A stretch of 37,823 nucleotides of DNA from Oscillospiraceae bacterium. GTDB lineage: Bacteria > Bacillota > Clostridia > Oscillospirales > Ruminococcaceae. The notes below the pieces were generated by a model. The model was not told where the DNA came from, did not search any database, and saw only the letters and a program-made list of their open reading frames with translations. How positions within the stretch are numbered: the first letter of the stretch is position 1; the number at the start of each line of letters is the position of its first letter. Below are positions 13,720 through 30,164 of the stretch, one piece after another. The position numbers were made by a program, and so were the translations under genes. The stretch lies in the NCBI GenBank assembly GCA_018434245.1, contig JAHDPQ010000124.1:1-37823 (forward strand). Direction: 5' to 3'.

Positions 13720-13751
13720 ATTGTAGCGCCGTTATGGGCATATGTCAATAT
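13720..13751 (-). promoter_or_regulatory. Promoter with shared 20-bp operator (copy 1), for the 13-gene operon
   Basis: On the minus strand TTGACA (13748-13743), a 17-bp spacer and TACAAT (13725-13720) form a strong sigma-A promoter about 44 bases before the MBL gene. The -35 box and spacer coincide with the shared motif, here TTATGGGCATATGTCAATAT at 13732-13751 on the plus strand. A weaker inverted half-site TATGCTCACAA lies at 13705-13715. Confidence 0.8.
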
Positions 13752-13803
13752 CTGTTCGGGTTTGTTTCAAGCTAAACAACTTAGGTGCGCTATTAACAAT
13801 TAA

Positions 13804-13841
13804 GCGGAGAGGCCATCCTTTTAGCAGGACAGCCTCTCCGC
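13804..13841. repeat. Long GC-rich hairpin between divergent genes
   Basis: GCGGAGAGGC (13804-13813) pairs with GCCTCTCCGC (13832-13841); inside it TCCT pairs with AGGA around TTTAGC. No T-run follows on either strand. It lies between the divergent MBL and XRE promoters, so it is neither a simple terminator nor an obvious operator. Confidence 0.5.
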
Positions 13842-13894
13842 ATACAATGGGTATTAAGTGTTAAGGGGGCAACCGATAGTTGCCGAATAGTTGG

Positions 13895-13923
13895 TAGACT
13901 GAAAAAGGCAAGGTAACTATAAT
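13895..13923 (+). promoter_or_regulatory. Probable promoter of the XRE-family gene
   Basis: TATAAT at 13918-13923 is preceded at 17 bp by TAGACT (four of six matches to the -35 consensus). The inferred start site is about 16 bases before the ATG at 13946. This promoter does not carry the shared 20-bp motif. Confidence 0.5.
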
Positions 13924-13945
13924 AAAAGTGAAAAGAGGTGGTTAT

Positions 13946-15106
13946 ATGTCGTTGGGTAATAGAATTAAAGAGCAAAGAAAAAGGGCGGGAATGTCGCAAG
14001 AAAAGGTAGCAGAACTTGTCGGGGTCAGCCGACAGGCTGTTACAAAATGGGAAGCAGACTTATCTGCTCCAAGCACAGAAAACCTCTTTGCGTTAGCTAA
14101 AATCTTTAGAACAACAGTTGATTTACTGTTAGATACTGGCGAGGATGAAACCTGTCGATCTTCCGCCGAGCAGACCTATTACCTTTACAAAATGGAAGAA
14201 GCGAAAAAAGCAGCGGCGTTGCAGAAAAAGAGAAAACAGATTATTCGTATAGCAGCTATAATTGCAATATGCTATCTCGTTATTTTTTTCATTGGTTGGT
14301 TGATAACTGGCGGGTCAGCCGGGCGCAATACTGTATTTGACTGGCTGTCTCACTACTATCCGTTACTTATCGCAGCAGCAGTCTCCATTCTTTCCGCGTT
14401 GTTGGGTAAATATCGTCTTTCGGTAGTAACCCTTGCGGCCTGTACGGGTGGGGTACTCTTGGGGACATTATTGGGACGAGATTTCACAGGCCCCAAAGAC
14501 AGTATGAGTTATTACGGGTGGGCAATTTGGGGGGCAATCTTTCTTGTTTCATTCGTCGCGGGAATTATATGGGAAGTCTTTATTTCGCGGAAAGAAAACC
14601 CAAATAAGAAAAAAGTATGGTTATTGTCTGGAATTACACTAGCAATCGTGATTTTGATAGCGGTGATTTCTATAAGTTTTGTGCCGAAATATTCACAACC
14701 GGCATATTCTGTTGGTTCTTACAGAGCTTTGATACAGGATTTCACCGGCGAGTCTAAATATCTCTTCCCAAAAGAAGAACATCTCCCAGGCGAAGCCAAA
14801 TCTTCCACTGTTTACCTCAAGTCACGCTTTTCAGTCGAAAAGATTGGTTATGCTATTTACCTTGCGCCGCAGGCCGGGATTTATGACGACTGCTCAATCA
14901 CCTGCCGATTAATCAATTCGCATCCTGACAGTTCAACGGAAATACAATCAGACCTTGAGTATAATGATACGGCTATTCAAATCAGTGGAAACGAAGTAAA
15001 GTTCGAGCTTGATGGATGCCAATATTTTATTCGATTTAGACCTTCGTCGGACGAATTTTCACAAAATGCTGTATCTCTCGCAAAGGCGATAATTGATTTA
15101 GAATAG
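13946..15106 (+). CDS. XRE-family helix-turn-helix regulator with membrane domain
   Basis: The N-terminal 65 residues are a Cro/C1-type HTH: LGNRIKEQRKRAGMSQEKVA, then LVGVSRQAVTKWE and PSTENLFALAKIF. Membrane segments follow: IAAIIAICYLVIFFIGWLI, a pair around LLIAAAVSILSALLG, GWAIWGAIFLVSFVAGIIWE and a last one before residue 235. About 150 extracytoplasmic residues form the C-terminus. The architecture suggests a membrane-tethered regulator responding to an outside signal. The start at 13946 follows GAGGTGG; an earlier in-frame ATG lacks a good site. It is one of few plus-strand genes here, divergent from the Fe-S operon, and does not look part of the shared regulon. Confidence 0.8.
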   Translation: MSLGNRIKEQRKRAGMSQEKVAELVGVSRQAVTKWEADLSAPSTENLFALAKIFRTTVDLLLDTGEDETCRSSAEQTYYLYKMEEAKKAAALQKKRKQIIRIAAIIAICYLVIFFIGWLITGGSAGRNTVFDWLSHYYPLLIAAAVSILSALLGKYRLSVVTLAACTGGVLLGTLLGRDFTGPKDSMSYYGWAIWGAIFLVSFVAGIIWEVFISRKENPNKKKVWLLSGITLAIVILIAVISISFVPKYSQPAYSVGSYRALIQDFTGESKYLFPKEEHLPGEAKSSTVYLKSRFSVEKIGYAIYLAPQAGIYDDCSITCRLINSHPDSSTEIQSDLEYNDTAIQISGNEVKFELDGCQYFIRFRPSSDEFSQNAVSLAKAIIDLE

Positions 15107-15132
15107 TATGGGTAATATAGACATTTCCGGGA

Positions 15133-15336
15133 TCACTCTTTATGTTTTAAGCCTTCCTTATCAACATTTCCGGATACTCCTGCATGTCTAATTTGTCCAT
15201 TACTAACCGTATAAATATATGTTGCATCTGGTTCGTCAGCATATTGAACATGTGTGTTCCATTCATTATTTTGTTTGGAATCAATATTATGCTGGCCGCT
15301 GCCACAAGAAGGAAGGTTTTTTTCGCATTGCCCCAT
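15133..15336 (-). CDS. Small unrecognised frame, possibly a gene remnant
   Basis: A 67-residue frame lies between the end of the DUF134 gene and the end of the XRE gene. Its composition is protein-like (CEKNLPSCGSGQ near the start, then ATYIYTVSNGQIRHAGVSGN), with no hydrophobic stretch. No well-spaced ribosome binding site precedes the ATG, and AGGTGG lies too close. It could be the end of a degraded gene or a short downstream cistron of the DUF134 operon. I do not recognise a family. Confidence 0.25.
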   Translation of the reverse strand: MGQCEKNLPSCGSGQHNIDSKQNNEWNTHVQYADEPDATYIYTVSNGQIRHAGVSGNVDKEGLKHKE

Positions 15337-15379
15337 CCACCTAACGGGACCAAACGTATTACCTCACGAATATATGGTT

Positions 15380-15856
15380 TTATTCTTCCCTCCAGCCATG
15401 TCGCCGGCAGTGTCCCCGGCAGAACCTGCCCTTACAGTTCTGTCCACAGATAATTTTCGTTGAACCGCAGGCAGGGCAAGCATATTCCCCTTTTTTGATG
15501 GATTCCATATTTTCATAGCTTTCCGTCCATTCGTTGCCGCAATCCATGCATTTCACAGGGCAAATATGCCGAGTGAAATTACCGCCCTCTATAAGGATTG
15601 TTTTCCCATTTACCAGACTATCCGCAACTTTTTCTCGCGCCGATAAAAGGATGCGTTGAAAGGTGGGACGGGATACTTCCATCTTTTCGGCGCACTCGCT
15701 CTGCTCAAGTCCTTCCAGATCCTTCAGGCGAATTGCCTCCAGTTCCTCAAGCTTCAGTACGTTTTCCGGTATCTCATCTACACCTTTTTCCGAAGGAATA
15801 AAGTAGGGAACGGTAGGGACGTTTTCAATTCTTCTCCATTTTGTAGGCCTAGCCAT
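15380..15856 (-). CDS. DUF134-family DNA-binding protein
   Basis: This 158-residue protein is a DUF134 member with a sigma-70 region-4-like helix-turn-helix: LEELEAIRLKDLEGLEQSEC, then AEKMEVSRPTFQRILLSARE. The N-terminal RPTKWRRIENVPTVPYF motif is diagnostic. A C-terminal extension holds two CxxC pairs (CMDCG, CPACG) and a CxxxCKGRFCRGHCRRH cluster that would bind zinc or an Fe-S cluster. DUF134 genes often lie beside NifX and Mrp-type genes in anaerobes. Its gene is the last of the DUF1847 operon and overlaps the DUF89 stop by one base. It is one of two obvious candidates for the regulator of the shared motif. Confidence 0.85.
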   Translation of the reverse strand: MARPTKWRRIENVPTVPYFIPSEKGVDEIPENVLKLEELEAIRLKDLEGLEQSECAEKMEVSRPTFQRILLSAREKVADSLVNGKTILIEGGNFTRHICPVKCMDCGNEWTESYENMESIKKGEYACPACGSTKIICGQNCKGRFCRGHCRRHGWREE

Positions 15857-16713
15857 TATATCAACTCCGTTCTATGGCACTTAAAAACATATTCATTTAA
15901 ACTGACCTTCAGCCTTCCGGCTACCATAATGCACTTCGCTTTTAGCAGGAAGAACACCGACCTTCTACAATCGGAAAGCGCCTCAAAATTCCCCTGACCT
16001 TTGCTGATAACAATATCCGCCTTATCAAAAACAGATAGAAATTCCTCTCCGCATTGGTCCAGGATGATACCGGGGGCTCCGCAGCCCGTAGTAATAATAT
16101 CTGCGTAATCATTTAAGCCGGAATCATATGCGTCCTGCAAAGTCGCATCGTTAATAATCGGCTCACTTCTAACCGCATAAGTAATTTTATAACCGGAAAG
16201 GCGTTTAATCAATACCCGGTCAAAGACAGTTTCCCCCGCGTTATCTCCGATGATCAGAATGCTTCTTGCCGACCTAAGTTCTTCTTCAAAGATATCGAGG
16301 TCGCAAACTGAAAACTCCTTTGAAAGCTCTGTTTGAATGCTGCCTTTAATATCTATATTGCCATAGATTGCCGAATCTATAATATTCCCTGTGGCTGCAA
16401 TTTTCAGCGCCCAGTACAATGCGTTTTGTTTTTGCGACAGATAATGCTTGAGAAATGGTTGAATTTTTTTGGCCGCGTCAATATCCCGTTCTTTGATATG
16501 TTTATATGGGTCGGATACACCGGTCAGGCGTTTCACGACATGATGCATATCTTTTACGATGTCCGGTGAATGCCTATATCTTTTATAGTTAGCTAGAATT
16601 CCGAGAGCTTCTTCCATAATTTTAGCCTGTATCTTAGGTTTATCAGTTGCCATTCTCGATGCTTCAAGCACCTGCTTCAATACACATGGCAAGCAGTCAA
16701 GAAATATCTCCAT
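15856..16713 (-). CDS. DUF89/ARMT1-like damage-control phosphatase
   Basis: This 285-residue protein belongs to the DUF89 family of metal-dependent phosphatases thought to remove damaged or harmful phosphometabolites. The N-terminus MEIFLDCLPCVLKQVLEA carries the Cys-xx-Cys of the microbial subfamily. IIGDNAGETVFDRVLI holds the metal-binding Asp-Asn pair, and VISKGQGNFEAL and LKAKC are conserved later motifs. It would act in the cytosol on an unknown phosphate ester. Gene order: 30 bases after the CGGC gene, one-base overlap (TAATG) with DUF134. Confidence 0.85.
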   Translation of the reverse strand: MEIFLDCLPCVLKQVLEASRMATDKPKIQAKIMEEALGILANYKRYRHSPDIVKDMHHVVKRLTGVSDPYKHIKERDIDAAKKIQPFLKHYLSQKQNALYWALKIAATGNIIDSAIYGNIDIKGSIQTELSKEFSVCDLDIFEEELRSARSILIIGDNAGETVFDRVLIKRLSGYKITYAVRSEPIINDATLQDAYDSGLNDYADIITTGCGAPGIILDQCGEEFLSVFDKADIVISKGQGNFEALSDCRRSVFFLLKAKCIMVAGRLKVSLNEYVFKCHRTELI

Positions 16714-16743
16714 CTCATCCCTCCATTATCTTAGCTGTTCGGC

Positions 16744-17076
16744 TTAGTGGGTGTAATCGATGATTTTGATCGATTCACCCAGTTTTTTTACAATGGCTTC
16801 TTTGATTGCTTGTGCATGCGGGCAGGGAAAACCAATCGGATTTCCTCTCGTAATACAGGAGGCCAAAACGATTGTGTCCGCACCCCGCTTAACCATTTCG
16901 GCAGTTCTCGTTACGGCCCTTTTACCGGGACAGCCACCGCATGTATTAAATCCGATGACTTCAATCTCACCCTCAACATTTTCAAACGCGCATTTCTTTT
17001 CCCGCATAACTTTAAAATCAGTGGTGCCGGGACACATATCCTCCGTCTGCATACACCGAATAATGCCTGCTTTCAT
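16744..17076 (-). CDS. CGGC-domain protein (second of two)
   Basis: This 110-residue protein has the family motif NTCGGCPGK near residue 45, an N-terminal IIRCMQTEDMCPGTTDF, and IGFPCPHAQ. Seven cysteines are present. It is shorter than the homologue at 9350-9811 but shares the same order of motifs, from the metal-binding start through a CGGC loop to a cysteine before the final helix. The role is unknown; the association with DUF1847, itself rich in cysteines, suggests metal or sulfur handling. It lies 18 bases after the DUF1847 gene. Confidence 0.83.
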   Translation of the reverse strand: MKAGIIRCMQTEDMCPGTTDFKVMREKKCAFENVEGEIEVIGFNTCGGCPGKRAVTRTAEMVKRGADTIVLASCITRGNPIGFPCPHAQAIKEAIVKKLGESIKIIDYTH

Positions 17077-17094
17077 AATATGACCTCCCCTAAA

Positions 17095-17724
17095 CTATTT
17101 TTGTTGCTTGTATAATTTGCTCTTATAATAGCTGTCAGACAGATACAGCGCGCCTATGGGGTTATGCGCTAAAACCCGATCCTTCACGGCAAATACGGTA
17201 ACTGGCGCATCGGAGTATTTAATGAACAGGGAATCATGACCGACGCATAATCCCAGAATGATATTTAATTCAGTTTGCGCCTTGTTCAGGAAAACCGCCT
17301 GCCCGATGGGATTACACATCGGCTCATATGTACCGGGGCGGACCTTTTCATTCTCTTTAATTCCTAAAAACTCTTTGGGGATGCTTCCGTTTTTACATGC
17401 GATGGATTGCACTTCAAAGCCGTTGTGCATCAGGATTTTGCAAAGAGTATTTGCTTCTTTTGCCAGTCCTACACAAAAAGCCAGCCCCAGCTTTTTATAG
17501 CCGCACTTGTTAGCGAAATCCATAATTTCTTCAAGCCTTGTTTTTTTGCAATACCCCTCCGCTTCCGTCAGAGCGGAACAATATGCCAGTTTTTTATTAT
17601 CTTCATCCTGATATAATTCTTTGACTTTTTCTTGTTCTTCCTCATTGCAGGGGCAATTCAGCGGTGTTTTATCGAGTTCTCCCGTTCTACAGCTTCGATT
17701 CCCGCACATCGCGCATGTATACAT
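17095..17724 (-). CDS. DUF1847-family cysteine-rich protein
   Basis: This 209-residue protein opens with a metal-binding segment (CAMCGNRSC, then CPCNEEEQ) and continues with AYCSALTEAEGYCKKTRLEE, LGLAFCVGLAKEANTLCKIL, MCNPIGQA and ILGLCVGHDSLF. The pattern is that of the DUF1847 family of predicted metal-binding proteins from anaerobes. Its many conserved cysteines and the LCVGHDSLFIKYSDAPVT core suggest a redox or metal-trafficking protein, but no reaction is known. It is the first gene of a four-gene operon and carries the shared operator in its promoter 57 bases upstream. Confidence 0.82.
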   Translation of the reverse strand: MYTCAMCGNRSCRTGELDKTPLNCPCNEEEQEKVKELYQDEDNKKLAYCSALTEAEGYCKKTRLEEIMDFANKCGYKKLGLAFCVGLAKEANTLCKILMHNGFEVQSIACKNGSIPKEFLGIKENEKVRPGTYEPMCNPIGQAVFLNKAQTELNIILGLCVGHDSLFIKYSDAPVTVFAVKDRVLAHNPIGALYLSDSYYKSKLYKQQK

Positions 17725-17787
17725 ACTCTCGCTTCTTTCTTTATTCTCTTATCGATCACTCGGAACAGACGATATGATGACATTTAT

Positions 17788-17819
17788 ATGTTAATCAAAT
17801 AATGGGCATATGTCAACAT
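17788..17819 (-). promoter_or_regulatory. Promoter with shared operator (copy 2), for the DUF1847 operon
   Basis: Minus strand TTGACA (17816-17811), 17-bp spacer, TAACAT (17793-17788). The operator copy at 17800-17819 reads TAATGGGCATATGTCAACAT on the plus strand, in the same register over the -35 box and spacer as the other copies. Confidence 0.75.
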
Positions 17820-17900
17820 CGCTTACCGTAACGAGGTTTTGCAGGCACGCCCAGCAAGAAAATGCATATTTTCATATGATCGGTTACAGCAAATTCGCAT

Positions 17901-18752: not shown

Positions 18753-18864
18753 AGTTCTTTTATACCTCGAATGCTTATAAGATTGCGTTTTTTCTGTACT
18801 GTGTCGCAGCTATCAAGCTGAGTAATATTATAGTTGAATTTATTAGGTATAGCGAATATATTTG

Positions 18865-19809: not shown

Positions 19810-20294
19810 ATAGTTTTAACCTCCGATAAATCATTCTGGTTTATAAGCGATCCGGGTATCGCTTTGTCTATAAACAATATCCCATCCAAGTGATCGATCT
19901 CATGACAAAGAGCGCGCGCCAGCAGCCCGGTGCCCTCCAAGACAAGCGGCTTCCCGTTTTCATCAAGCGCTTTTACCACGACCTTTTCGGGGCGTTTGAC
20001 CTCGCCATAAATGCCCGGAATGCTCAGGCAGCCTTCCGCCTCCTGCTGCTCTCCATCAGCCTCTACGATCACGGGATTGATCAGTTTGATAAGTCCTTCT
20101 CCAATGTCGAGCACGACAAGTCTTCTTAATATGCCAACCTGGGGAGCAGCCAGTCCAGCTCCGTCCGCATGGTACATGGTTTCAGCCATATCTTCAAGCA
20201 AGGAGCGAATCCGGCTGTTGACATTATCAACACTCCTTGCTTTTTTTCTTAAAATATCATCGGTCTGATAGTTCATAATGCTTCGCAGCGCCAC
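19806..20294 (-). CDS. def: Peptide deformylase
   Basis: This metalloenzyme removes the formyl group from nascent proteins. All three motifs are present: GAGLAAPQVG (residues 45-54), EGCLS with the metal-ligand Cys (87-91) and HEIDH with two His ligands (131-135). The frame runs further upstream through ATG codons, but AGGAGG lies seven bases before a GTG at 20294, which gives MALRSIMN, the usual start of the family, and a 162-residue protein. It sits in the ferredoxin/DUF5320 operon, after a perfect 15-bp hairpin, and overlaps the radical SAM gene. Confidence 0.93.
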   Translation of the reverse strand: MALRSIMNYQTDDILRKKARSVDNVNSRIRSLLEDMAETMYHADGAGLAAPQVGILRRLVVLDIGEGLIKLINPVIVEADGEQQEAEGCLSIPGIYGEVKRPEKVVVKALDENGKPLVLEGTGLLARALCHEIDHLDGILFIDKAIPGSLINQNDLSEVKTI

Positions 20295-20328
20295 AGACAT
20301 CCCTCCTTTACTTATAAAGAGTATTGCA

Positions 20329-20365: not shown

Positions 20366-20377
20366 CAGATCAGACGA

Positions 20378-20968: not shown

Positions 20969-20995
20969 ATTTCCACCTCCATGCATCTATTGTTT

Positions 20996-21388
20996 TCACT
21001 CAGAAAGCTTCTCAAGCTGCCGGTCAATCTGATCTGCCGTTTCGGGGCTGATCAGGTGTTCCATACGGCAGGCGTCCTCTGCGGCTATGGCAGCTTCGAC
21101 GCCGAGGATATCATGAAGAAACTTTTTGAGCAATTCGTACCTTCTTTTTATATCGGCAGCCGCTTTTCGGCCATTCTCCGTTAAGGAGACAGCGCCATAC
21201 TTTTCTTTGGTAACGTATCCCGCCTCCCTGAGAACATTCATCATGCTGCTTACGCTGGCTTTTGAAATACCAAGCGCGCTTGCGATGTCTGTCGAACGGA
21301 TGCCTTCTTCACTCGATAGCTCCAGCATAACCTTCAAATAATTCTCTTTGGACGGAGTTATTTTCCCTGTATGGCTGTTTCCCTTCAT
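20996..21388 (-). CDS. DtxR/MntR-family metal-dependent regulator
   Basis: This 130-residue protein has the DtxR winged helix (KENYLKVMLEL, RSTDIASALGISKASVSSMM, NVLREAGYV) followed by the metal-binding and dimerisation helices, with Glu, Asp, Cys and His ligands in AAEDACRMEHLIS. It lacks the C-terminal SH3-like domain, as MntR does. Such proteins bind palindromes of about 20 bp when loaded with iron or manganese. Its gene is inside the ferredoxin operon, itself under the shared motif, so it is a strong candidate for the protein that reads the motif and autoregulates. Gap to the upstream gene: four bases. Confidence 0.87.
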   Translation of the reverse strand: MKGNSHTGKITPSKENYLKVMLELSSEEGIRSTDIASALGISKASVSSMMNVLREAGYVTKEKYGAVSLTENGRKAAADIKRRYELLKKFLHDILGVEAAIAAEDACRMEHLISPETADQIDRQLEKLSE

Positions 21389-21797: not shown

Positions 21798-21855
21798 AGA
21801 AAACCATCTCCTTATATAGCATTGCAAAATAATTGTTGGCCTATGCCCATAACTA

Positions 21856-21887
21856 ATCATAGCGTCATTATGGGCATATGTCAATAA
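21856..21887 (-). promoter_or_regulatory. Promoter with shared operator (copy 3), for the ferredoxin operon
   Basis: Minus strand TTGACA (21884-21879), 17-bp spacer, TATGAT (21861-21856). The operator TTATGGGCATATGTCAATAA at 21868-21887 is the best copy in the window. A perfect inverted 11-bp half-site, TATGCCCATAA, lies downstream at 21842-21852, around the transcription start. Confidence 0.82.
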
Positions 21888-21976: not shown

Positions 21977-23221
21977 TTATATGAGTTTGTTTCTCTCCAG
22001 GGCAACGCTCGCAACGGGAAAGGGCTTCAAAGCTCTCGGGAGGATTCCTATGACATATGCGATCAGCATGCCGTAATTCGTAATGTAGACACCCTGCTCG
22101 CGCGCCTTTTCAATGCGATACTGCATTTCCCTTCGATTGAGCATACAGCCCCCGCAATGGACGATAACCGCGTATTTAGAAATATCTCTGGGATAACAGG
22201 CACCTCTTGCCCATTCAAATTGGATATCTTCACCTGCCATCTGACGAATCCAACGGGGGATTTTTACCGTACCGATGTCATCGGATTGAAGATGGTGAGT
22301 GCAGCCCTCTACAATTAACACTTTGTCACCTGATGCTAAGCTCTCAATTCGTTTGATGCCTCGCACCATTTCCGCAAGATCTGCTTTCTGGCGCGCGAAC
22401 AGAATGGAAAACGAAGTTAGCGGAATCTCGGAAGGCGTATCAGCGGATACCTTATGAAAGGCTTGCGAATCAGTGATCACGATGGCGGGGGGTACAGTCA
22501 GGCGCTCCAGCGTCAACTTGAGTTCATGTTCCTTAGTAATGACTGCAATGGCATCGCATTCAATAATGTCGCGGATCGTCTGTTGCTGTGGAAGAATTAG
22601 CCGCCCCTTGGGGGCCGCCTTGTCAATGGGCGTTACCAATACGGCGACATCACCCGCATGGATGAGATCACCAATCAGCACTGGCTCCATGTCCTCATAT
22701 TTCGAGTTGGTAATAATAATCTGTTTTACTTCTTCAATTCCCAAACCACTGCGCGCGCTTGCACAAACCATCGGAACTCTTGCTGTCTGCTTCAGCGCTT
22801 CAAATTCATCGGAGTCAGGCATATGCTTATCGCATTGATTAAGCACGCAGATGCAGGGAATCTTCCGCCGCATAAGTTGTTCGATAAACTCCATTTCAAA
22901 CGAGGTTATCTTTGCCACCGTGTCGGTTACCACCACAGCCAGATTGCATTTTCGCAGCACCTCGTAGGTTTTCTCAATTCTAAGCTTTCCAAGCTCACCC
23001 GTATCATCAAGTCCTGCCGTATCAATAAATACAACTGGCCCTACCGGTAGAAGCTCCATTGTCTTATAAACAGGGTCGGTCGTTGTTCCTGCTATTTCGG
23101 AGGTGACGGCTATGTTTTGGCCTGTTAGGGCGTTTATTAAGGAGGATTTTCCGACATTCCTCCTGCCAAAAAGCCCGATAGTAAAACGACTTGCCCTTGG
23201 AGTCGCGTTTAAATCAGACAT
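21977..23221 (-). CDS. hydF: [FeFe]-hydrogenase maturation GTPase HydF
   Basis: HydF is the GTPase scaffold on which the 2Fe subcluster of the H-cluster is built with HydE and HydG before transfer to HydA. The protein (414 residues) has a P-loop GRRNVGKS (19-26), DTAGLDD as the G3 region, NQCDKH as G4 and SAR as G5. The C-terminal cluster-binding part shows CTHH, later HCGGC about 50 residues on, matching the CxH...HCxxC pattern. The frame extends 22 codons upstream; GGAAAGGA before the ATG at 23221 fixes the start. A 144-base gap separates it from hydE. Confidence 0.95.
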   Translation of the reverse strand: MSDLNATPRASRFTIGLFGRRNVGKSSLINALTGQNIAVTSEIAGTTTDPVYKTMELLPVGPVVFIDTAGLDDTGELGKLRIEKTYEVLRKCNLAVVVTDTVAKITSFEMEFIEQLMRRKIPCICVLNQCDKHMPDSDEFEALKQTARVPMVCASARSGLGIEEVKQIIITNSKYEDMEPVLIGDLIHAGDVAVLVTPIDKAAPKGRLILPQQQTIRDIIECDAIAVITKEHELKLTLERLTVPPAIVITDSQAFHKVSADTPSEIPLTSFSILFARQKADLAEMVRGIKRIESLASGDKVLIVEGCTHHLQSDDIGTVKIPRWIRQMAGEDIQFEWARGACYPRDISKYAVIVHCGGCMLNRREMQYRIEKAREQGVYITNYGMLIAYVIGILPRALKPFPVASVALERNKLI

Positions 23222-23365
23222 TGTTTTTCCTTTCCGTATGCCCCTCTGGGCAATGCTATTTGCATGATCGGCGTTTCCTAATGGCAAAATTCTGCATCAT
23301 ACATCTTGTGAAGGTCATAAGTATACGCCGCTATTAAACTGCATTGCACATATCATATTCCACCC

Positions 23366-24451
23366 TCATTTCGACCTGCTTTCTTTTTGTAAATCTATAT
23401 AGTCTCCCCGAGAGAAATCGGGGGTAAAGCCTGCCGACACGATTTGATGCGAAAGGCAGGACAGGCCTTCCGCAGCTTCTTCCCCGGTATAGACTTTGTT
23501 GTCATATATCGCATAGTCTTTACGGTGTGCGGCGGGGGAAAGGTTGGGCATGACAACATTCGCGCCGGCCTTTAAGCCCTTTTCACGCCCTAACGGATCG
23601 ACGGTGCTGAGTGCAGTTGTGGCCGGCAACAGCACTTTTGGCAGCATGATCCGGATCAGCGACAGCAGAATCAGTGTATGTTGGGAGGAAGGATGATAAA
23701 ACCCGGCGAATCTTGTGTCCTTATGCGGGATAAACGGGCCAATACCGATCATATGGGGCTCCAGCTCCCGCAGAAAAAGGAAATCCTCCGCCAACGTTTC
23801 ATAGGTCTGATACGGAGAATCCACCATAAAACCGGCTCCAACCTGATATCCGATATCCTTTAGCGTATATAAGCATCGCTTGCGGTTTTGCAGGCTCAGT
23901 TCCTTGGGATGAAGCTTCCCATAGTGTTCCTCGTCAGCCGTCTCATGGCGCAGCAGGTAGCGGTCAGCCCCCGAGGCAAACAGCGCCTGATAGGATTCCC
24001 GGCTGCGTTCGCCAACAGAAAGGGTCACGGCGCAGTCGGGGAACCGTTCTTTGATTGCGGACACAATGCAGCACAACCGCGCATCGGTAAAGTACCTGTC
24101 CTCGCCGCTTTGCAGTACGAAGGTGCGAAAGCCCAGCAGATAGCCCGCCTGGCAGCAATCGAGAATCTCCTTCCCAGTCAGACGGTATCGTGTCGCGCTC
24201 CCGTTGCTTTTACGCAGGCCACAGTAGTAGCAGTTATTTTTGCAGCAGCTTGAAAACTCAAGCAGGCCGCGGAAATAGATTCTTTTTCCGTAATACTTCT
24301 GCTGGAGCCTGTTAGCGGACAAGCGCAATGCAGATTGTTCCTCCGCGTCCGCATCCTCACAGAAATACCGTATAGCATAGCAAAGCTCTTTTTTGTCGGC
24401 ACAATTCAACCATCGCGAGAAATCCCCCGTGTTGTTCAGACTCAACTTCAT
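23366..24451 (-). CDS. hydE: [FeFe]-hydrogenase maturation radical SAM enzyme HydE
   Basis: This 361-residue enzyme carries the radical SAM cluster motif Cys70-x3-Cys74-x2-Cys77 (CKNNCYYCGLR), the LQSGED motif, the RYLLRHETADEEHY segment and GIGPFIPHKDT typical of HydE. It builds part of the dithiomethylamine-bridged 2Fe precursor, acting on the cysteine-bound Fe(CO)2CN complex made by HydG. Length matches the family. The gene is nine bases after hydG and is clearly co-transcribed. No hydrogenase structural gene is in the window. Confidence 0.95.
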   Translation of the reverse strand: MKLSLNNTGDFSRWLNCADKKELCYAIRYFCEDADAEEQSALRLSANRLQQKYYGKRIYFRGLLEFSSCCKNNCYYCGLRKSNGSATRYRLTGKEILDCCQAGYLLGFRTFVLQSGEDRYFTDARLCCIVSAIKERFPDCAVTLSVGERSRESYQALFASGADRYLLRHETADEEHYGKLHPKELSLQNRKRCLYTLKDIGYQVGAGFMVDSPYQTYETLAEDFLFLRELEPHMIGIGPFIPHKDTRFAGFYHPSSQHTLILLSLIRIMLPKVLLPATTALSTVDPLGREKGLKAGANVVMPNLSPAAHRKDYAIYDNKVYTGEEAAEGLSCLSHQIVSAGFTPDFSRGDYIDLQKESRSK

Positions 24452-24460
24452 AGGCAGCTC

Positions 24461-25912
24461 CTACAAGCGCAGATCGCGCTCGCCGTTTTCTATCCTGCTC
24501 AGGTTCTCAAGCAGTTTGCTGTAAACCGGTTCGCCCTTAAACTGCTCCATATGGCTTCTGAGAATTTTCTCGCCTTTTTGTCTTGTTTCATCCGAAGCAT
24601 AGTCCAGTAAATATTCCTTGAGCGTGAAAATGGCGTTCGGGATGCAATAGTTGTGCACGAACCGGGATTTGGCGACCTTCATGAATTGCTCGCCTGTGCG
24701 ACCAGCGCGGTAGCACGCCGTACAAAAAGAGGGGATAAAGCCCATGTCACAGATTTCCTTGACCACCCCGTCCAAAGAACGGTCGTCGCCAATGGAAAAC
24801 TGCTCGTGCTCCGGCAATGCGTTCGCACTCTCGGATTTTACATAGGCCCCAACGCCGATGCGCGTGCCGGCATCGATCTGCGATACGCCGAAGGGGATAA
24901 CTTCCTTGCGCACCCTACTTGGTTCACGTGCGGTGCAGATCATACCGGTGTATGGTACGGAAAGACGTAGGACTGCGACCAGCTTCTTAAAATCCGCGTC
25001 ACTGACTGCGTATTCGGGATGCTCGGAAAAGGGCGTGCCAGTTGCGGGGGTAATACGGGGAAAGGAGATTGTATGAGGCCCCACGCCATTGAATGTTTCC
25101 TCCAAATGGATAGTATGATATAAAAGTCCCATCACCTCAAAACGCCAATCATATAACCCGAACAAAACGCCTAACCCGTTGTCATCAACACCTGCCTGCT
25201 GAGCTCTATCCATGCAATAAAGCCGCCAGCGATAATGTCCTTTGATCGTTCCTTGCGGATGTACCCTGCGATATGTATCATGATGGTAGGTTTCCTGAAA
25301 GACCTGGAATGTGCCGATGCCGACATCCTTGAGTTTTTTCAGTTCATCAACGGTGAGTGGTGCGCAGTTGATGTTAGCACGGCGAATCTCCCCATGTTCG
25401 GTTTTGACGCTATACACCTTCTTGATTGTCTCGCACATAAAATCAACTTCCGTTTTAGGTGACTCCCCGTAAACGAGCACGGTGCGCTTCTGACCCTCTC
25501 CGATCATAATTCGAACTTCCTGTTCGATCTCGTCCATCGTGAGGGTTTTACGCTGGATCGCCTTGTTGCTGGACCGGAAGCCGCAATAGAGGCAATTGTT
25601 CGCACATTCATCGCTGATATACAGCGGCGCGAAGAATACGATGCGATCCCCGTAGACCCCCTCTTTGAGCTGGTGCGCCAATTCGTACATCTCCTGTATG
25701 GTACCTTCATCCCGGTTTTGGATCAGTATGGCGGTTTCCTCCGGCTCCAGTCGCACACACTGCTCTGCCTTTTTCAGCACGCGTCGCACATCTTGCTTGG
25801 ATGGGTTTTCCCATTTGTTTAGCTGCGCCCATATCTTTTCGTCATCGATAAAATCATGGTCAAGCTTATCATACTCCTCGAATTCTTTTTTGTATTTCTT
25901 CAGAAAATTCAT
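24461..25912 (-). CDS. hydG: [FeFe]-hydrogenase maturation tyrosine lyase HydG
   Basis: HydG cleaves tyrosine to make the CO and CN ligands of the H-cluster. Its radical SAM motif is Cys103-x3-Cys107-x2-Cys110 (CANNCLYCGFRSSN). The C-terminal auxiliary cluster motif, Cys397-x2-Cys400-x22-Cys423 (CTACYRAGRTGEQ...NYC), is complete. At 483 residues it has the usual length. ARANINC-type substrate-region residues (RRANINCAPLTVDELKKLKD) also match. The gene follows the TM1266-type gene by 19 bases and precedes hydE by 9. Confidence 0.96.
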   Translation of the reverse strand: MNFLKKYKKEFEEYDKLDHDFIDDEKIWAQLNKWENPSKQDVRRVLKKAEQCVRLEPEETAILIQNRDEGTIQEMYELAHQLKEGVYGDRIVFFAPLYISDECANNCLYCGFRSSNKAIQRKTLTMDEIEQEVRIMIGEGQKRTVLVYGESPKTEVDFMCETIKKVYSVKTEHGEIRRANINCAPLTVDELKKLKDVGIGTFQVFQETYHHDTYRRVHPQGTIKGHYRWRLYCMDRAQQAGVDDNGLGVLFGLYDWRFEVMGLLYHTIHLEETFNGVGPHTISFPRITPATGTPFSEHPEYAVSDADFKKLVAVLRLSVPYTGMICTAREPSRVRKEVIPFGVSQIDAGTRIGVGAYVKSESANALPEHEQFSIGDDRSLDGVVKEICDMGFIPSFCTACYRAGRTGEQFMKVAKSRFVHNYCIPNAIFTLKEYLLDYASDETRQKGEKILRSHMEQFKGEPVYSKLLENLSRIENGERDLRL

Positions 25913-25931
25913 ATCTACGCTTCCTTTCGCA

Positions 25932-26183
25932 TTATTGATTGCCCTTCGTAATCATGGACTTAACCGACGCGCCGTTGATTCTCCCCAGCTTCCCGGTCAT
26001 AGCGCTGATACCATCATTGCTTCCATCCACGATCAGCGAAATGACCGACACGCCCCTCTCCCGATAGGGGATACCTATCCGTCCGACAATTAACTCCGCA
26101 TAGTCATGTAAAACAGCGTTGACGTTTTCCGTGCAGGAAAGATCATCAATAACGATCCCGATGATTCCAATCTTTTTTTGCAA
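25932..26183 (-). CDS. TM1266-type iron-only hydrogenase system putative regulator
   Basis: This 83-residue ACT/NikR-C-like protein matches the TM1266 family: IGIIGIVIDD near the start, VLHDYAELIVGRIGIPYRER, VSVISLIVDGSNDGISAMTGKLGRI and a short tail. The family is found almost only beside [FeFe]-hydrogenase maturation genes and is thought to be regulatory, though it has no DNA-binding domain of its own. The start is a TTG nine bases after AGGAGG. It is the first gene of the hyd operon, directly after the structured leader. Confidence 0.88.
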   Translation of the reverse strand: MQKKIGIIGIVIDDLSCTENVNAVLHDYAELIVGRIGIPYRERGVSVISLIVDGSNDGISAMTGKLGRINGASVKSMITKGNQ

Positions 26184-26368
26184 TGCATTCTTCCTCCTTA
26201 AATCAAAAGCTCCCTTCCCACATAATTACGGGAAGGGCAGCAGAACGGCAAACAAAAACACACATATGCCTTTATGCGCGCCTTCCCGCTCGGAAGTACC
26301 TTGCGGTTAGGTAAACACGAAAACCCTATATCCCCGCGCAGATTAGCTGCAAGCAGATATATTGACTA
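26184..26368 (-). ncRNA. Structured 5' leader of the hyd operon, riboswitch-like
   Basis: From the promoter of motif copy 4 to the TTG start there are about 185 nt of untranslated RNA. A 6-bp stem UGCGCG/CGCGCA (26340-26335 and 26280-26275) closes a domain with an AGGGU/ACCU stem, ACC-GCAA-GGU with a GNRA tetraloop, and CUUCC/GGAAG. Further on, CCCUUCCC and GGGAAGGG (26237-26230, 26219-26212) form an 8-bp hairpin followed by a weak U tract. CGGGAAGG at 26288-26281 in the closed domain can pair over 8 bp with CCUUCCCG (26236-26229) in the hairpin's first arm. This gives two mutually exclusive states. It matches no riboswitch class I recognise. Confidence 0.6.
26212..26237 (-). terminator. Terminator-like hairpin in the hyd leader
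   Basis: A perfect 8-bp stem, CCCUUCCC with GGGAAGGG, with a 10-nt loop, is followed by AGCUUUUGAUUU, a weak U tract. It lies about 20 bases before the ribosome binding site. Its first arm can pair instead with the upstream leader domain. Confidence 0.55.
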
Positions 26369-26374
26369 TAATTT

Positions 26375-26406
26375 ATCATACTCTTATTATGGGCATACGT
26401 CAATAA
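26375..26406 (-). promoter_or_regulatory. Promoter with shared operator (copy 4), for the hyd operon
   Basis: Minus strand TTGACG (26403-26398), 17-bp spacer, TATGAT (26380-26375). The operator at 26387-26406 reads TTATGGGCATACGTCAATAA on the plus strand, 19 of 20 matching copy 3. The inferred start is near 26368. Confidence 0.78.
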
Positions 26407-26468
26407 TAATCATAACACCAGATGGAATATTGGTTGAAAAGGTGTATGATAGCATTGTTATCAAATGA

Positions 26469-26888
26469 CTATTCATTTTTCTGGCAATCGGGACAGTAGC
26501 CGTAGATATTGAGCTTATGTCCGGCGATCACATAATCCGTTTCTTTTTTCAAGGTTTCTTCATAGCCTTCCAGTGGACAATGTTCAATGGCCAAGATTCT
26601 TTTACAACCTAAGCATATCAAATAATGCCTGTGTCCCATCCGATTGTATTCAAAAAGTGCTTTGTCTTCGCCAGCGATAATAAGCTTTGTAACCAGTTTT
26701 TTGTCCGTCAGAGCTTCAAGCGTCCTGTAAACGGTTGAAAAGCTCACCGTGATATCTTTTTCATTTAATTCGCGGAACAGCCTGTCGGCTGCGACAGGCT
26801 GATCACTTTGCTCAAGAATGTCAAGTATGGCAGTGCGGCATTTTGTGTTTCTCAGTCCATTTCGCCTTAAGTCATCCACAATATCCAT
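26469..26888 (-). CDS. Fur-family metal regulator, probably Zur-like
   Basis: This 139-residue protein has the Fur winged helix (LRNTKCRTAILDILEQ, SFSTVYRTLEALTDKKLV) and the dimerisation part with HRHYLICLGCKRI and CPDC. The two CxxC pairs form the structural zinc site, and the His-rich loop forms the sensory site. It is co-transcribed with a Znu-type transporter, nine bases after the permease gene, which suggests zinc-responsive control, but the metal cannot be told from sequence. The transporter operon itself carries the shared motif, not an obvious Fur/Zur box. Confidence 0.85.
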   Translation of the reverse strand: MDIVDDLRRNGLRNTKCRTAILDILEQSDQPVAADRLFRELNEKDITVSFSTVYRTLEALTDKKLVTKLIIAGEDKALFEYNRMGHRHYLICLGCKRILAIEHCPLEGYEETLKKETDYVIAGHKLNIYGYCPDCQKNE

Positions 26889-26897
26889 ATGTTTGTG

Positions 26898-27767
26898 TCA
26901 CGTTCCTTTCTGCCGGTTACTACGGCACTCTTTTTCAGTGGCAATCTTTTTTCGTTCCAAATGCCTACGGATAGCACGTATCATGTATACTAAAAAATAG
27001 AATATAACTGACAGGATTACGATTGCGGCTCCGGATGCGATATTTATATCATAAGATATCCACAAACCCGATATACAGAAAATCATCCCAAGCATCACCG
27101 AATAGACCATGCGCTTTTTGAGATTTGATGTGAGCATCCCCGCTGTAGCCGCAGGGGCCGTAAGCAAGGCGAGCACAAGAATTATGCCAACGACCCGAAT
27201 TAAAACCACAACGGTCATTGCAATCAGAACTAAAAGCAGATACTCCAAAAATGTAGTTTTAATGCCTCTGATCGTGGCGAATTCCTTGTCAAACAGATAG
27301 GCTTTCCAGTCATTGAATAAAGCGATGATAATGAACATTATGATGGCCGTCAGGAAGATCATTAAATAAAGGTCGGCGCGTGCAACAGATAAAATACTGC
27401 CGAAAAGATAGGAGCTTATGTCAGGAGGATATCCGGGCATGAGAAAAATAAATAAGATGCCCAAAGCCATCCCGAGCGACCAAAACAAACCAATCACAAC
27501 ATCCGAGTGCGTGCCGCCTTTTCTTTTTATGTATCCGATTCCAAGCGCCGCGCATATGGAAAACAAAAACGCACCAATGATAGGCTCAAAGCCCATCAGG
27601 TAGCCCAGACCTACACCGCCGTAAGAGGTGTGCGCGATGCCACCGCTCATCATGACCAACTTTTTTTCAACAATAATGACTCCGATCATGCCGCAGACAA
27701 TGCTGGCGAGTATGCCTGAAAGGAAAGCATTCTGTAGGAACTGATATTCAAGAAGTGCATTAATCAT
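26898..27767 (-). CDS. ZnuB-type metal ABC transporter permease
   Basis: This protein (289 residues) is an ABC-3 family permease with about eight membrane helices: LSGILASIVCGMIGVIIVEK, a conserved MSGGIAHTSYGGVGLGYLMG loop, FLFSICAALGIGYI, VIGLFWSLGMALGILF and others up to VILSVIFYFLVYMI. It forms the membrane channel for zinc, manganese or iron with the adjacent ATPase and binding protein. The frame begins earlier, but GAGGAGG before the ATG at 27767 gives a start that overlaps the ATPase gene by eight bases. The C-terminal tail is highly basic. Confidence 0.9.
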   Translation of the reverse strand: MINALLEYQFLQNAFLSGILASIVCGMIGVIIVEKKLVMMSGGIAHTSYGGVGLGYLMGFEPIIGAFLFSICAALGIGYIKRKGGTHSDVVIGLFWSLGMALGILFIFLMPGYPPDISSYLFGSILSVARADLYLMIFLTAIIMFIIIALFNDWKAYLFDKEFATIRGIKTTFLEYLLLVLIAMTVVVLIRVVGIILVLALLTAPAATAGMLTSNLKKRMVYSVMLGMIFCISGLWISYDINIASGAAIVILSVIFYFLVYMIRAIRRHLERKKIATEKECRSNRQKGT

Positions 27768-28539
27768 TGGCCTTTTCCTCCTCGTGATCCCTGAGAACCC
27801 TATGAGGCACTCCATGGGCGATCAGGTCAACAGGACAGCCATAGAGGTTGTTTACGACCTTTTCGGTAAGCTCAGGCTCCCCGTGATATACAAGCTGTCC
27901 ATTAAGGCATGCCAGACGGTTAACCTGTGAAGATACGGCGAGCAGGTCGTGTGTTACCAGAATAATAGTCATATTTTTGTTCAACTCCGCAAGCAGGCTG
28001 TAGATCTGGTCGCGGGAGGCGGCGTCCACGCTGGCGGTCGGTTCATCTAAAAGCAAAAGCTTGGGATTTGTGGCAAGCGCCCTTGCAATGAGCATTTTTT
28101 GAAATTCTCCTCCCGACAGCTCCGAAATCTGCCGATTTGCAAGGTCCGTGATCCCAATTTTTTCAAGCAACGTATACACTGACTCTTTATCTTTTGAGGA
28201 ATATCTAAAAAAAGGAGCTATCCCCTGCTTTAAGTGTCCTGTTAAAACAACCTCAAACAAGCTGATGGGAAATTTCCGGTTTAATAAAGCAAACTGGGGG
28301 ACATATCCGACAAGGGACCTGTTTTTATGCGCATTGCCCCCATAGATGCTGATGTTTCCGGATGAGACGGGAATAAGTCCTAAAATGGCTTTCAGAAGGG
28401 TGGATTTCCCTCCGCCGTTTGGCCCTATGATACCCAGGTATTCTCCGTCTGACACGTTCAGACAGACGCCCATGATCGCGGGCGTATGTCCGTAATGGAC
28501 CGACAAGTTTTCTATATATACGGCGTACTCTCCGCTCAT
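27760..28539 (-). CDS. ZnuC-type metal ABC transporter ATPase
   Basis: This 259-residue ATPase has Walker A GPNGGGKST near residue 39, the Q-loop VPQFALLNRKFPIS, the signature LSGGEFQKMLIARAL, Walker B LLLLDEPTASVD and an H-loop LVTHD. It powers uptake through the downstream permease. It overlaps the binding-protein gene by four bases and the permease gene by eight, so all three are made together. The family (ABC-3 type) transports zinc, manganese or iron; context with a Fur-like gene favours a divalent metal. Confidence 0.92.
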   Translation of the reverse strand: MSGEYAVYIENLSVHYGHTPAIMGVCLNVSDGEYLGIIGPNGGGKSTLLKAILGLIPVSSGNISIYGGNAHKNRSLVGYVPQFALLNRKFPISLFEVVLTGHLKQGIAPFFRYSSKDKESVYTLLEKIGITDLANRQISELSGGEFQKMLIARALATNPKLLLLDEPTASVDAASRDQIYSLLAELNKNMTIILVTHDLLAVSSQVNRLACLNGQLVYHGEPELTEKVVNNLYGCPVDLIAHGVPHRVLRDHEEEKAND

Positions 28540-29423
28540 TTCATAACTCCACTTATCGCTTCGGTCATACGTTCGAGGTTTGCAATATAATCATCCGACA
28601 AAGGCTCAAGAATGACTTTTTCTCCGTCGATTTCTTCAGCAAACGCATCGGGCTGTTTGCTGTCGATCTCGGCTTGGGAGAAGATAGCTTCAATATTTCC
28701 TGCTTTGGCAAGGTCAATCATGTCCTGTAAATGCTGCGGTGTGGCTTCCTTACCATCCTCCTCAAGTGCATACATCTGGAGTCCGTAATCGTCCGCAAAA
28801 TATCCGTAGGCCGGATGGAAGACGATGAATGTCTTATTATGAATCGCAGCAAAGGTTTCCGTAATTTCAGCGTCAACGCGGTCAAGCTCTTTCATGAACG
28901 CCTCCGCATTATCCTGATATGTCTGCGCGTGCTCAGAGTCGAGGCCGGCCATAGTTTCTGCGATTACTTTAACCATTACCTTTGCCCGTCTGGGGGAGAG
29001 CCAGATGTGCGGGTCCCGCTTTCCGGGGCTGAACTCCCTATCGGGATAGACTTCCGCAACCTTAACCGGCAGGTCCACGATTTTCATATCCTCTGCTTTT
29101 GGCAGTATGTTGGCCTTTTCCGTAGGTACGCCTATCGTGAAGTAGACGGAGGCCCTGCCGAAGTTCTCCATCTCCTTTGGTGTAGGCTCGTAATTGCCGG
29201 GGCTGTTGCCTGGAGGTACAATCGTAACCACTTCCGCCAAATCTCCGCATACCGCTTCTACGAGAGCCTTTTGCGGCAGGATCGTTACAGCGATAATGGT
29301 TTTTACATTCCCGGTTTTCGATGGTTGCTGGCTACCGCAGCCTGAAACAAGCAGGAGACTGAGAGCAAAGATCAAACCCAAGGCGGTACACATAACCTTT
29401 TTTAATTTCATTGGCGTCATCAT
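28536..29423 (-). CDS. ZnuA-type metal-binding lipoprotein of an ABC transporter
   Basis: This 295-residue protein has a lipoprotein signal (LVSGC, Cys29) and the A-I cluster fold. Two metal-ligand histidines are seen, His139 in DPHIW and His203 in FHPAYGYFA, and a late acidic ligand region in LEPLSDDY. The first ligand of the family, usually His in PG.DPH.YEPTP, is replaced: here PPGNSPGNYEPTP has Gly76. The common His-rich loop of ZnuA is absent too. Metal choice may therefore differ from zinc. It is the first gene of the transporter operon, with promoter motif copy 5 close by. Confidence 0.9.
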   Translation of the reverse strand: MMTPMKLKKVMCTALGLIFALSLLLVSGCGSQQPSKTGNVKTIIAVTILPQKALVEAVCGDLAEVVTIVPPGNSPGNYEPTPKEMENFGRASVYFTIGVPTEKANILPKAEDMKIVDLPVKVAEVYPDREFSPGKRDPHIWLSPRRAKVMVKVIAETMAGLDSEHAQTYQDNAEAFMKELDRVDAEITETFAAIHNKTFIVFHPAYGYFADDYGLQMYALEEDGKEATPQHLQDMIDLAKAGNIEAIFSQAEIDSKQPDAFAEEIDGEKVILEPLSDDYIANLERMTEAISGVMK

Positions 29424-29467
29424 CTGCCTTTCAATTCCATCCGCAAGTGGGAAGCATTTGCATTTAA

Positions 29468-29499
29468 ATTATATGGTGGTTATGGGCATTTGTCAATAA
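29468..29499 (-). promoter_or_regulatory. Promoter with shared operator (copy 5), for the metal transporter operon
   Basis: Minus strand TTGACA (29496-29491), 17-bp spacer, perfect TATAAT (29473-29468). The operator at 29480-29499 reads TTATGGGCATTTGTCAATAA on the plus strand, 19 of 20 matching copy 3. The inferred transcription start lies about 38 bases before the gene. Confidence 0.8.
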
Positions 29500-29558
29500 T
29501 GATCGGCCGTTTGTTGTGTTCATGAAAGAAACCGCGAAAATATAAATGAACAATATGA

Positions 29559-29590
29559 TGCCCAAAAGCGCTTGCACTTTTGGGCATTTG
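29559..29590. terminator. Terminator-like hairpin between the CotF-like and transporter genes
   Basis: ATGCCCAAAAG and CTTTTGGGCAT pair perfectly around an 8-base loop and are followed on the plus strand by TTGTTT. On the minus strand it lies 40 bases past the CotF-like stop and would end that transcript. No plus-strand gene enters it. Confidence 0.6.
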
Positions 29591-29620
29591 TTTAATCCGC
29601 TATTGAACTGGCACTAAATT

Positions 29621-30082
29621 TCAGTTATACATCCCGTTTTGTGCCATATAGTTGTAAATCTGCTCACCGTGTTGTTGTTCTTCTTTTTGTATATGGTTAA
29701 GAACATTCCTTGCGTTCGTATCCTTAAACTCAAAGATGGCAGTATTATAAACAGACGACACATGTTTTTCGGTTGATAATAAATCAGTGCAAAGATAACT
29801 GTCTCTTTGCTTATTGGGGTCTGAGGACGCCGCGTTATAAGTTGGAGTAAAATTCAACTGCGCCTGTTTATTCCCTCCCGCCTGCATTGCCGGGACGGTT
29901 CCGCCCATGATTTGATTAATTGTATCCAAATGTTGCTGTTCAACCTGCCCAATCTGTGTGAATAAACCCTTAAGCTGGCCATCGTGAGCTTCGGCCGCAT
30001 ACTTATTATACTTTTCCACACAGGTCTGCTCTTGCTCTTTCAAATCTTTCAGGAACGATGTTTCTTTTTGTGTTAATTGCAT
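29621..30082 (-). CDS. CotF-family spore coat protein (ferritin-like helical bundle)
   Basis: This 153-residue protein matches the CotF family of spore coat proteins: DLLSTEKHVSSVYNTAIFEF, LNHIQKEEQQHGEQIYNYMA and a final QNGMYN are nearly canonical. The N-terminal half resembles a ferritin-like helix pair (EQEQTCVEKYNKYAAEAHDG). The gene supports a spore-forming host. GAGGTGA precedes the ATG. Its promoter contains a weaker copy of the shared motif, which may tie its expression to the metal regulon. It stands alone between two transporter regions. Confidence 0.85.
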   Translation of the reverse strand: MQLTQKETSFLKDLKEQEQTCVEKYNKYAAEAHDGQLKGLFTQIGQVEQQHLDTINQIMGGTVPAMQAGGNKQAQLNFTPTYNAASSDPNKQRDSYLCTDLLSTEKHVSSVYNTAIFEFKDTNARNVLNHIQKEEQQHGEQIYNYMAQNGMYN

Positions 30083-30133
30083 TTCTTATCACCTCGATAA
30101 TAGTCTGCTGGATATTATCGGGTTTTATACCCC

Positions 30134-30164
30134 ATTATTAAAAATTTTGAGCATATGTCAGAAA
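30134..30164 (-). promoter_or_regulatory. Probable promoter with degenerate shared operator (copy 6)
   Basis: Minus strand CTGACA (30161-30156), 16-bp spacer, AATAAT (30139-30134), about 50 bases before the CotF-like gene. The operator region at 30145-30164 reads TTTTGAGCATATGTCAGAAA, 15 of 20 matching the consensus. It is clearly weaker than the other five. Confidence 0.45.

Follow-up and report, generated by a model that had tools for sequence, protein, structure and literature searches.

Among the closest described counterparts of the genes considered here are the orp operons of Desulfovibrio vulgaris, which are activated by DVU2106 together with sigma-54 and IHF (PMC3897727). DVU2106 is, in addition, a repressor at its own sigma-70 promoter, acting from an overlapping binding site (PMC3897727; PMC6345978). 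The Desulfovibrio Orp proteins are described as mostly predicted metal-binding proteins, with MrpORP binding iron-sulfur (Fe-S) clusters and Orp8 showing homology to proteins that contain a Mo-Cu-S cluster (PMC6345978). Homologous-looking targets, including Fer4 ATPases, NifX-type proteins and Mrp, are present on a stretch of 37,823 nucleotides from an Oscillospiraceae bacterium (contig JAHDPQ010000124.1), the whole of which is called the window. Several gene runs of the window share a 20-bp promoter motif, and the product of the gene at 15380-15856, a protein of the DUF134 family, very probably binds this motif and exerts repressor-like control, as judged from sequence comparisons.

A scan of the window with the 20-mer of a preliminary description of this DNA yielded six matches at up to 3 mismatches, with 0.02 expected and none of 100 shuffles reaching six. 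These comprise the five strong copies already listed in that description and an overlooked copy at 21833-21852, and a scan at up to 6 mismatches added an extra downstream copy at 13696-13715 that fits the family consensus TTATTGACATATGCYCATAA at 16/20 positions. The weak copy at 30145-30164 deviates at 4 positions from the initial 20-mer and at 3 from TTATTGACATATGCYCATAA. Accordingly, all six coordinates reported initially were correct and the respective sites are real, the two second operators having been overlooked. The proposed near-palindrome around CATATG was also recovered as an imperfect palindrome with the halves TTATTGRCAT and TTATGRGCAT. In the genome sequence (3,112,904 bases, 3.11 Mb), the motif was not found outside the window at up to 3 mismatches: all six sites found with the initial 20-mer and all seven found with TTATTGACATATGCYCATAA are located in the window, with a single match to the reversed-pattern control in each search. 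The seventh of these sites is 30145-30164, 5' of a Coat_F ferritin-like gene. Since the assembly is 91% complete in 185 contigs, further sites in the genome are possible.

All five strong copies show, on the minus strand, the layout that had been proposed, namely a TTGACA -35 box (TTGACG in the 26387 copy) separated by 17 bp from a TATAAT-like -10 box. The predicted operators are the following, with operons presumed from strand and spacing and genes named by Pfam and NCBIfam:

13732-13751, minus strand: primary predicted operator of the MBL-radical SAM-NifU-NifX-Mrp-ORP operon, over the -35 box and spacer, TTGACA-17-TACAAT
13696-13715, plus strand (given as the family-consensus orientation): second, inverted predicted operator, 36 bp downstream of the 13732-13751 copy and over the predicted transcription start
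17800-17819, minus strand: predicted operator/promoter of the DUF1847-CGGC-ARMT1-DUF134 operon, TTGACA-17-TAACAT
21868-21887, minus strand: primary predicted operator of the ferredoxin-DtxR-Def-radical SAM operon, TTGACA-17-TATGAT; promoter conserved in the nearest relative, L124
21833-21852, plus strand (family-consensus orientation): second, inverted predicted operator of the ferredoxin promoter, 35 bp downstream of 21868-21887, kept in L124 at offset 35
26387-26406, minus strand: predicted operator/promoter of the TM1266-HydG-HydE-HydF operon, TTGACG-17-TATGAT; looks lineage-specific
29480-29499, minus strand: predicted operator/promoter of the ZnuA-ZnuC-ZnuB-Fur operon, TTGACA-17-TATAAT; ZnuA operons of L160 and L177 have such a site too
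30145-30164, minus strand: weaker predicted operator/promoter of the Coat_F ferritin-like gene, 3 mismatches to TTATTGACATATGCYCATAA

The DUF134 gene is the last of the run that follows the site at 17800-17819, as is likewise the case in relatives, and DUF134 would therefore be autoregulated. A scan of the window with Rfam gave two matches, neither of them at the motif promoters.

The association of the motif with DUF134 was apparent in two genome surveys. In the first, which covered 100 genomes including that of the window, the 20-mer was matched in 24. With the latter genome excluded, 27 loci were inspected, 13 of which, from 11 genomes, carry a DUF134 homolog beside the site (L009, L013, L016, L017, L018, L020, L022, L025, L026, L027, L030, L032 and L033). 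The other 14 loci are without a DUF134 homolog and represent mostly 3-mismatch matches, L008 among them adjoining Orp-like genes. Here and in the other inspections of relatives' loci, genes were named only by BLAST to the window proteins, many staying unnamed; places of the second survey that are distant from DUF134 genes were additionally searched with our own DUF134 profile.

In the second survey, 295 genomes of the order were searched for the exact core TTNTTGACATATGNCNNNAA and for DUF134 and DtxR domains, a one-mismatch pattern having been dropped in favor of the exact core on account of many control hits. The core was detected in 45 genomes (54 listed rows, representing 52 places, with 3 reversed-control hits) and DUF134 over the cut-off in 82. 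DUF134 was encoded in 39 of the 45 genomes with the motif versus 43 of the 250 genomes without it, 207 of the latter being devoid of both (Fisher p 1.4e-19). Moreover, 39 of the 52 places have a DUF134 gene no more than 1 kb away, with 84 DUF134 places, one of them a partial match (G215), used for the distances. The 13 more distant places include the window's own site, 6 kb away from the gene, a site in G068 adjoining Orp-like genes, two that adjoin NifX-type genes (L293, L294), one opposite an MBL-Mrp-NifX set (L290) and six without a convincing regulon gene (L286-L289, L291, L292). The genome of the window contains a single detected DUF134 gene, that at 15380-15856.

Two individual places from this survey may be mentioned separately. 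In G327, a genome without a full DUF134 gene, a 73-residue DUF134-like open reading frame (ORF; L285:2796-3017) is located beside an exact motif and perhaps represents a decayed regulator. In G341, a genome without DUF134 over the cut-off, a DtxR-type gene (L284:3001-3447) lies directly 3' of an exact core.

Conservation of the motif was examined in the best 80 of 453 loci as ranked by DUF134 likeness, taken as stretches of up to 8 kb on either side and overlapping in ancestry. These loci belong mainly to Clostridia, including Ruminiclostridium, Oscillibacter, Lacrimispora and Pelotomaculum, and a few originate from bins labelled as other phyla, which may be mis-binned. The 20-mer was found at 16/20 or better in 71 of the 80 loci (165 places) and at 18/20 or better in 57, compared with none of the 80 after a dinucleotide-type shuffle. 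In L124, whose DUF134 protein is 96% identical, the motif is present at each of three promoters, those of the ferredoxin, DUF1847 and MBL genes. The best-matching site was located on the DUF134 stretch or contig in 20 of 25 relatives' genomes and elsewhere in G356, G362, G369, G374 and G375, as judged by matching the site sequences between the two scans.

The DUF134 proteins can be divided into two types according to their recognition helix, 85 being ARTTVQ-like and 84 SRPTFQ-like, the type of the window, with six proteins of unclassifiable helix outside these counts. Of the 85 ARTTVQ-type genes, 76 have the sequence TTGACATATG at 9/10 or better in the 700 bp upstream, compared with 1 of 85 after shuffling, which suggests autoregulation. 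For a comparison of the operators, sites were picked by TTGACATATG and a -10 box alone, so that the other half was unselected, and loci holding both types were excluded. This procedure yielded 87 sites in 80 ARTTVQ-type loci (2 in shuffled sequences) and 129 in 75 window-type loci (17 in shuffled sequences), with 65 and 60 loci, respectively, containing at least one. A C at position 15 occurs in 8 of the 87 ARTTVQ-type sites versus 95 of the 129 window-type sites (p 2.5e-22), and the half-site thus changes with the recognition helix of DUF134. In the window-type sites, the unselected positions 13-19 carry 0.40-1.07 bits and the spacer positions 21-25 carry 0.02-0.29 bits. Positions 13-19 are thus conserved across relatives, although polymerase can dispense with them. 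The preliminary description had named two outcomes that would contradict its proposal, unconserved spacer bases and a motif equally common upstream of unrelated housekeeping genes, and neither was observed. Its proposals of a protein operator, one regulon, probable repression and a metal/Fe-S theme are supported at the level of sequence.

Additionally, a second operator was detected downstream of 68 of the 95 window-type sites with C at position 15, compared with 6 of 95 in shuffled sequences, the patterns having been written after viewing the relatives' sites. Of these second operators 61 are inverted and 43 lie at the commonest offsets of 34-35. The corresponding count for the ARTTVQ-type sites was 40 of 87 (1 after shuffling). 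The second copies cover the predicted transcription start, where no -35 box is needed, and the operator is therefore separable from the promoter element.

The preliminary description had named two local candidates for the regulator, DUF134 and the DtxR-type protein encoded at 20996-21388. The latter might be a metal-dependent repressor that binds the motif, with DUF134 a mere neighbor. Its gene belongs to the ferredoxin operon under the motif, a catalog of the operons behind the sites in 100 loci or regions (several of them from one genome) includes DtxR homologs in 13, and in G341 the motif is located just upstream of a DtxR gene with DUF134 undetected. However, DtxR domains are encoded in 261 of the 295 genomes and do not follow the distribution of the motif, most core places are close to DUF134 genes, the half-site tracks the DUF134 helix type, and the genome of the window contains four DtxR-type matches yet the motif in the window alone. 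A DtxR-type regulator of these sites is thus very unlikely, and the near-ubiquitous protein looks more like the product of a regulated gene; the single-copy DUF134 is favored by its co-occurrence with the motif and its proximity to it.

The window protein is a clear member of DUF134 (UPF0251, PF02001), scoring 83.2 bits against a cut-off of 27, with residues 2-96 aligned to profile positions 5-97 of 98. The cysteines C103, C106, C127 and C130 are invariant in 62 aligned relatives, and C55, C99 and C137 are present in 61 of them. A structure model of the protein has a mean pLDDT of 72 and a confident helix-turn-helix at about residues 31-90. In a Foldseek search, sigma region 4 and DeoR DNA-binding domains recurred, mostly at 0.6-0.9 A over 40-47 columns, the top row being HypA with low TM-scores, and a profile search of solved structures gave DeoR as the best match (E 3e-4). 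Many ARTTVQ-type DUF134 proteins are longer, with about 240-290 residues. All ten long proteins scanned, nine of the ARTTVQ type and one of the window type (L042), contain both a DUF134 and a Nitro_FeMo-Co (NifX) domain over the cut-off, an architecture like that of one-component regulators, in which NifX would be the sensor domain. Among 14 control genomes, 4 also gave matches to the DUF134 profile, methanogens accounting for two of these, and 3 of the 14 did so over the cut-off; the family thus spans bacteria and archaea.

The sigma-like fold raises the alternative that RNA polymerase or an alternative sigma factor reads the motif as an extended promoter element, with DUF134 acting as a sigma-like activator. 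The -35 box lies within the motif, and DUF134 reaches 22.3 bits with an ECF-sigma model (cut-off 21.1). This match is limited to positions 137-183 of 185, the last quarter of the model, and the pairing of region 2 with region 4 that characterizes the sigma-70 family was not found in DUF134, which gave region-4-like matches only. The second copies, being located downstream at the predicted start, have no role as -35 box. Furthermore, repression fits better than activation because the -35 and -10 boxes are near consensus, and a promoter element of this kind is highly improbable. Zur-like control by the Fur-family protein that the znu operon encodes (26469-26888) is extremely improbable: its gene lies under one operator, and in L160 and L177 Fur homologs accompany ZnuABC downstream of motifs, but a Fur-like gene is downstream of sites in just 6 of the 100 loci or regions and, to our knowledge, the operator is unlike Fur or Zur boxes.

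From the computed features, that is, the motif, its restriction to one cluster, its conservation and promoter position, the co-occurrence with DUF134 and the covariation with the recognition helix, we infer binding, dimerization, repression and a signal along the following lines. A DUF134 dimer would bind, through its sigma-region-4-like helix-turn-helix, a 20-bp imperfect palindrome, TTATTGRCATATGCYCATAA, which includes the TTGACA -35 box and extends over a large part of the 17-bp spacer, and at two promoters it would also bind the inverted copy that covers the transcription start some 35 bp further downstream. RNA polymerase would thereby be blocked at otherwise near-consensus sigma-70 promoters, with repression of the regulator's own operon, the Orp/Mrp/NifX/NifU operon and the ferredoxin operon and, in this lineage, also of the hydrogenase-maturation and Znu-type metal-uptake operons. 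The conserved C-terminal cysteines may read a metal or metal-sulfur cluster signal that releases or enforces binding, and in many relatives the fused NifX domain would take the sensor role. That the signal is of the metal-sulfur type has about an even chance of being correct.

Several observations weigh against control by DUF134 or against repression. The motif is missing at 16/20 in 9 of the 80 named loci, and 15 of the 75 window-type loci are without a site consisting of core and -10 box. The linkage in the 80 loci is not independent because these were chosen through DUF134; the test in 295 genomes is independent, but its Fisher value, like such values in general, overstates the significance because related genomes are not independent of each other. 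In that survey, 43 genomes with DUF134 are without an exact core match, and six with the motif are without DUF134 over the cut-off, namely G341, G327 and four (L286-L289) without a recognized regulon gene. TTGACATATG was found within 700 bp upstream of just 18 of the 84 window-type genes (5 of 84 after shuffling), because the DUF134 gene of this type frequently occupies a distal position in the operon. The covariation of helix type and operator type could stem from shared ancestry. None of the Foldseek E-values was at or below 0.001, the sigma and DeoR rows being at 0.075 or above for a model with the mean pLDDT given above. Finally, activation instead of repression is possible.

The composition of the regulon was deduced from the operons downstream of the sites in the 100 loci or regions. 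Besides the DtxR and Fur-like genes counted above, these operons contain genes for Mrp (36), NifX (34), DUF134 (31), C_GCAxxG-type or similar proteins (31), the NifX-flavin reductase (21), NifU (17), MBL (17) and ZnuA (4, one of them a 27%-identical relative), as well as unnamed genes (50). The regulon is centered on Orp/Mrp/NifX/NifU genes, and the genes for zinc-type transport and hydrogenase maturation look like lineage-specific additions. The hyd, znu and Coat_F genes of the window fall outside the conserved core. The hyd genes were rejected as core targets, because among 19 HydG loci in 25 DUF134 genomes a site of at least 16/20 was found in L257 alone. This site (G356) belongs to a second HydG copy, which is preceded by a DUF5320 gene, and two further HydG loci have 15/20 matches without the core; several stretches end before the first gene of the operon, and the misses are not all conclusive. 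Sites at ZnuA were found in L160 and L239, both from one genome, and in L177. The Coat_F homolog at L236 has no site, the Coat_F-ZnuA intergenic region of this locus containing just two 12/20 matches at chance level.

Additional genes were noticed behind sites of this kind. Small DUF5320 proteins are encoded first after DUF134-type operators in three genomes (L251:6677-6967, L236:3411-3701 and L247:7436-7747), followed in L251 by the gene for a second HydG-like radical SAM enzyme. In one Lachnoclostridium genome, operator-like sites precede the genes for a molybdate-type binding protein (SBP_bac_11; L238:5518-6342) and a molybdopterin xanthine-dehydrogenase-like oxidoreductase (L238:9562-12156), and in another genome a site precedes the gene for a heavy-metal-chelation DUF364 protein. 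The predicted functions of these molybdate, molybdopterin and DUF364 targets suggest a molybdenum or metal-sulfur signal.

The gene runs of the window to which the predicted operators belong are as follows, the run behind 21868-21887 consisting of ferredoxin, DtxR, Def and radical SAM genes:

4747-13669, minus strand: Orp-like run, presumed operon, with MBL, ScfB-like radical SAM, NifU_N, NifX-flavin reductase, BMC, CGGC, Mrp, C_GCAxxG-NifX, two Fer4-MinD ATPases, thioesterase, NifX and ArsD-like genes
15380-15856, minus strand: DUF134 (UPF0251) protein, proposed regulator, with sigma-region-4-like helix-turn-helix and Cys-rich C-terminus
15856-17724, minus strand: DUF1847, CGGC and ARMT1-like genes, presumed to be co-operonic with DUF134
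20996-21388, minus strand: DtxR-type protein, proposed target and rival regulator
21977-26183, minus strand: HydF, HydE, HydG and TM1266-like genes
26469-29423, minus strand: Fur, ZnuB, ZnuC and ZnuA genes, the Fur-family gene at 26469-26888

The start codon of the Orp-like run was set by inspection, the ATG of the ORF caller at 13741 falling within the operator. The ScfB-like enzyme of this run, a radical SAM/SPASM protein matching the SCIFF maturase at 626 bits, is encoded at 11460-12827; a search near its gene, at 10.5-14 kb, for ORFs of 30-90 residues with at least four Cys gave a single one, on the opposite strand. Elsewhere in the window, a tRNA match at 730-799 adjoins a phage-type integrase gene at 981-2462, an arrangement resembling the edge of an integrated element, and a portion of a mobile island may be present on the contig. 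A pemK RNA was identified by Rfam at 3278-3378 on the minus strand (50.2 bits, gathering threshold 34.8).

In the literature searched, motif strings included and with most subscription papers and regulon databases outside the search, no description of a DUF134 function or operator was found; the papers listed for the motif strings are on other subjects, as judged by title and abstract, and no paper on DUF1847 was found. One source calls DUF134 a family without known function (PMC7565180), the name DUF134 also occurs in PMC8347963, and UPF0251 appears in a mutation table (PMC5886521). The novelty of a DUF134 operator is accordingly provisional, and the predicted operator and function are added here to the description of the family. 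The predicted operator, the autoregulation and the target list make DUF134 a directly testable regulator family and offer an approach to the Orp/NifX/Mrp genes of anaerobes, which are poorly understood and whose described control, that in Desulfovibrio, is of a quite different type. Only tentatively can it be proposed that DUF134 proteins are widespread metal-sulfur-cluster-sensing repressors, whose sigma-region-4-like fold would read a -35-based operator such that repressor and sigma factor compete for the same bases, and whose NifX or Cys-rich domain would sense a Mo/Fe-S cluster, coordinating genes for Orp proteins, Fe-S carriers, molybdate or metal uptake and H-cluster maturation.

With respect to known systems, three comparisons can be drawn. 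Metalloregulators of the DtxR/MntR and Fur/Zur types likewise control local metal/Fe-S regulons from operators over promoters, and a metal signal is likely in both cases; they represent other protein families with other operators, whereas the sites described here are associated with DUF134. The closest folds to the predicted helix-turn-helix of DUF134 are sigma region 4, which also reads the -35 box, and DeoR DNA-binding domains; unlike sigma factors, DUF134 shows no match to sigma region 2, its additional part being a C-terminus rich in Cys or a NifX domain. The orp operons of D. vulgaris resemble the window in their targets and differ in their control, which involves a sigma-54 enhancer-binding activator there and sigma-70-type promoters with the candidate regulator DUF134 here.

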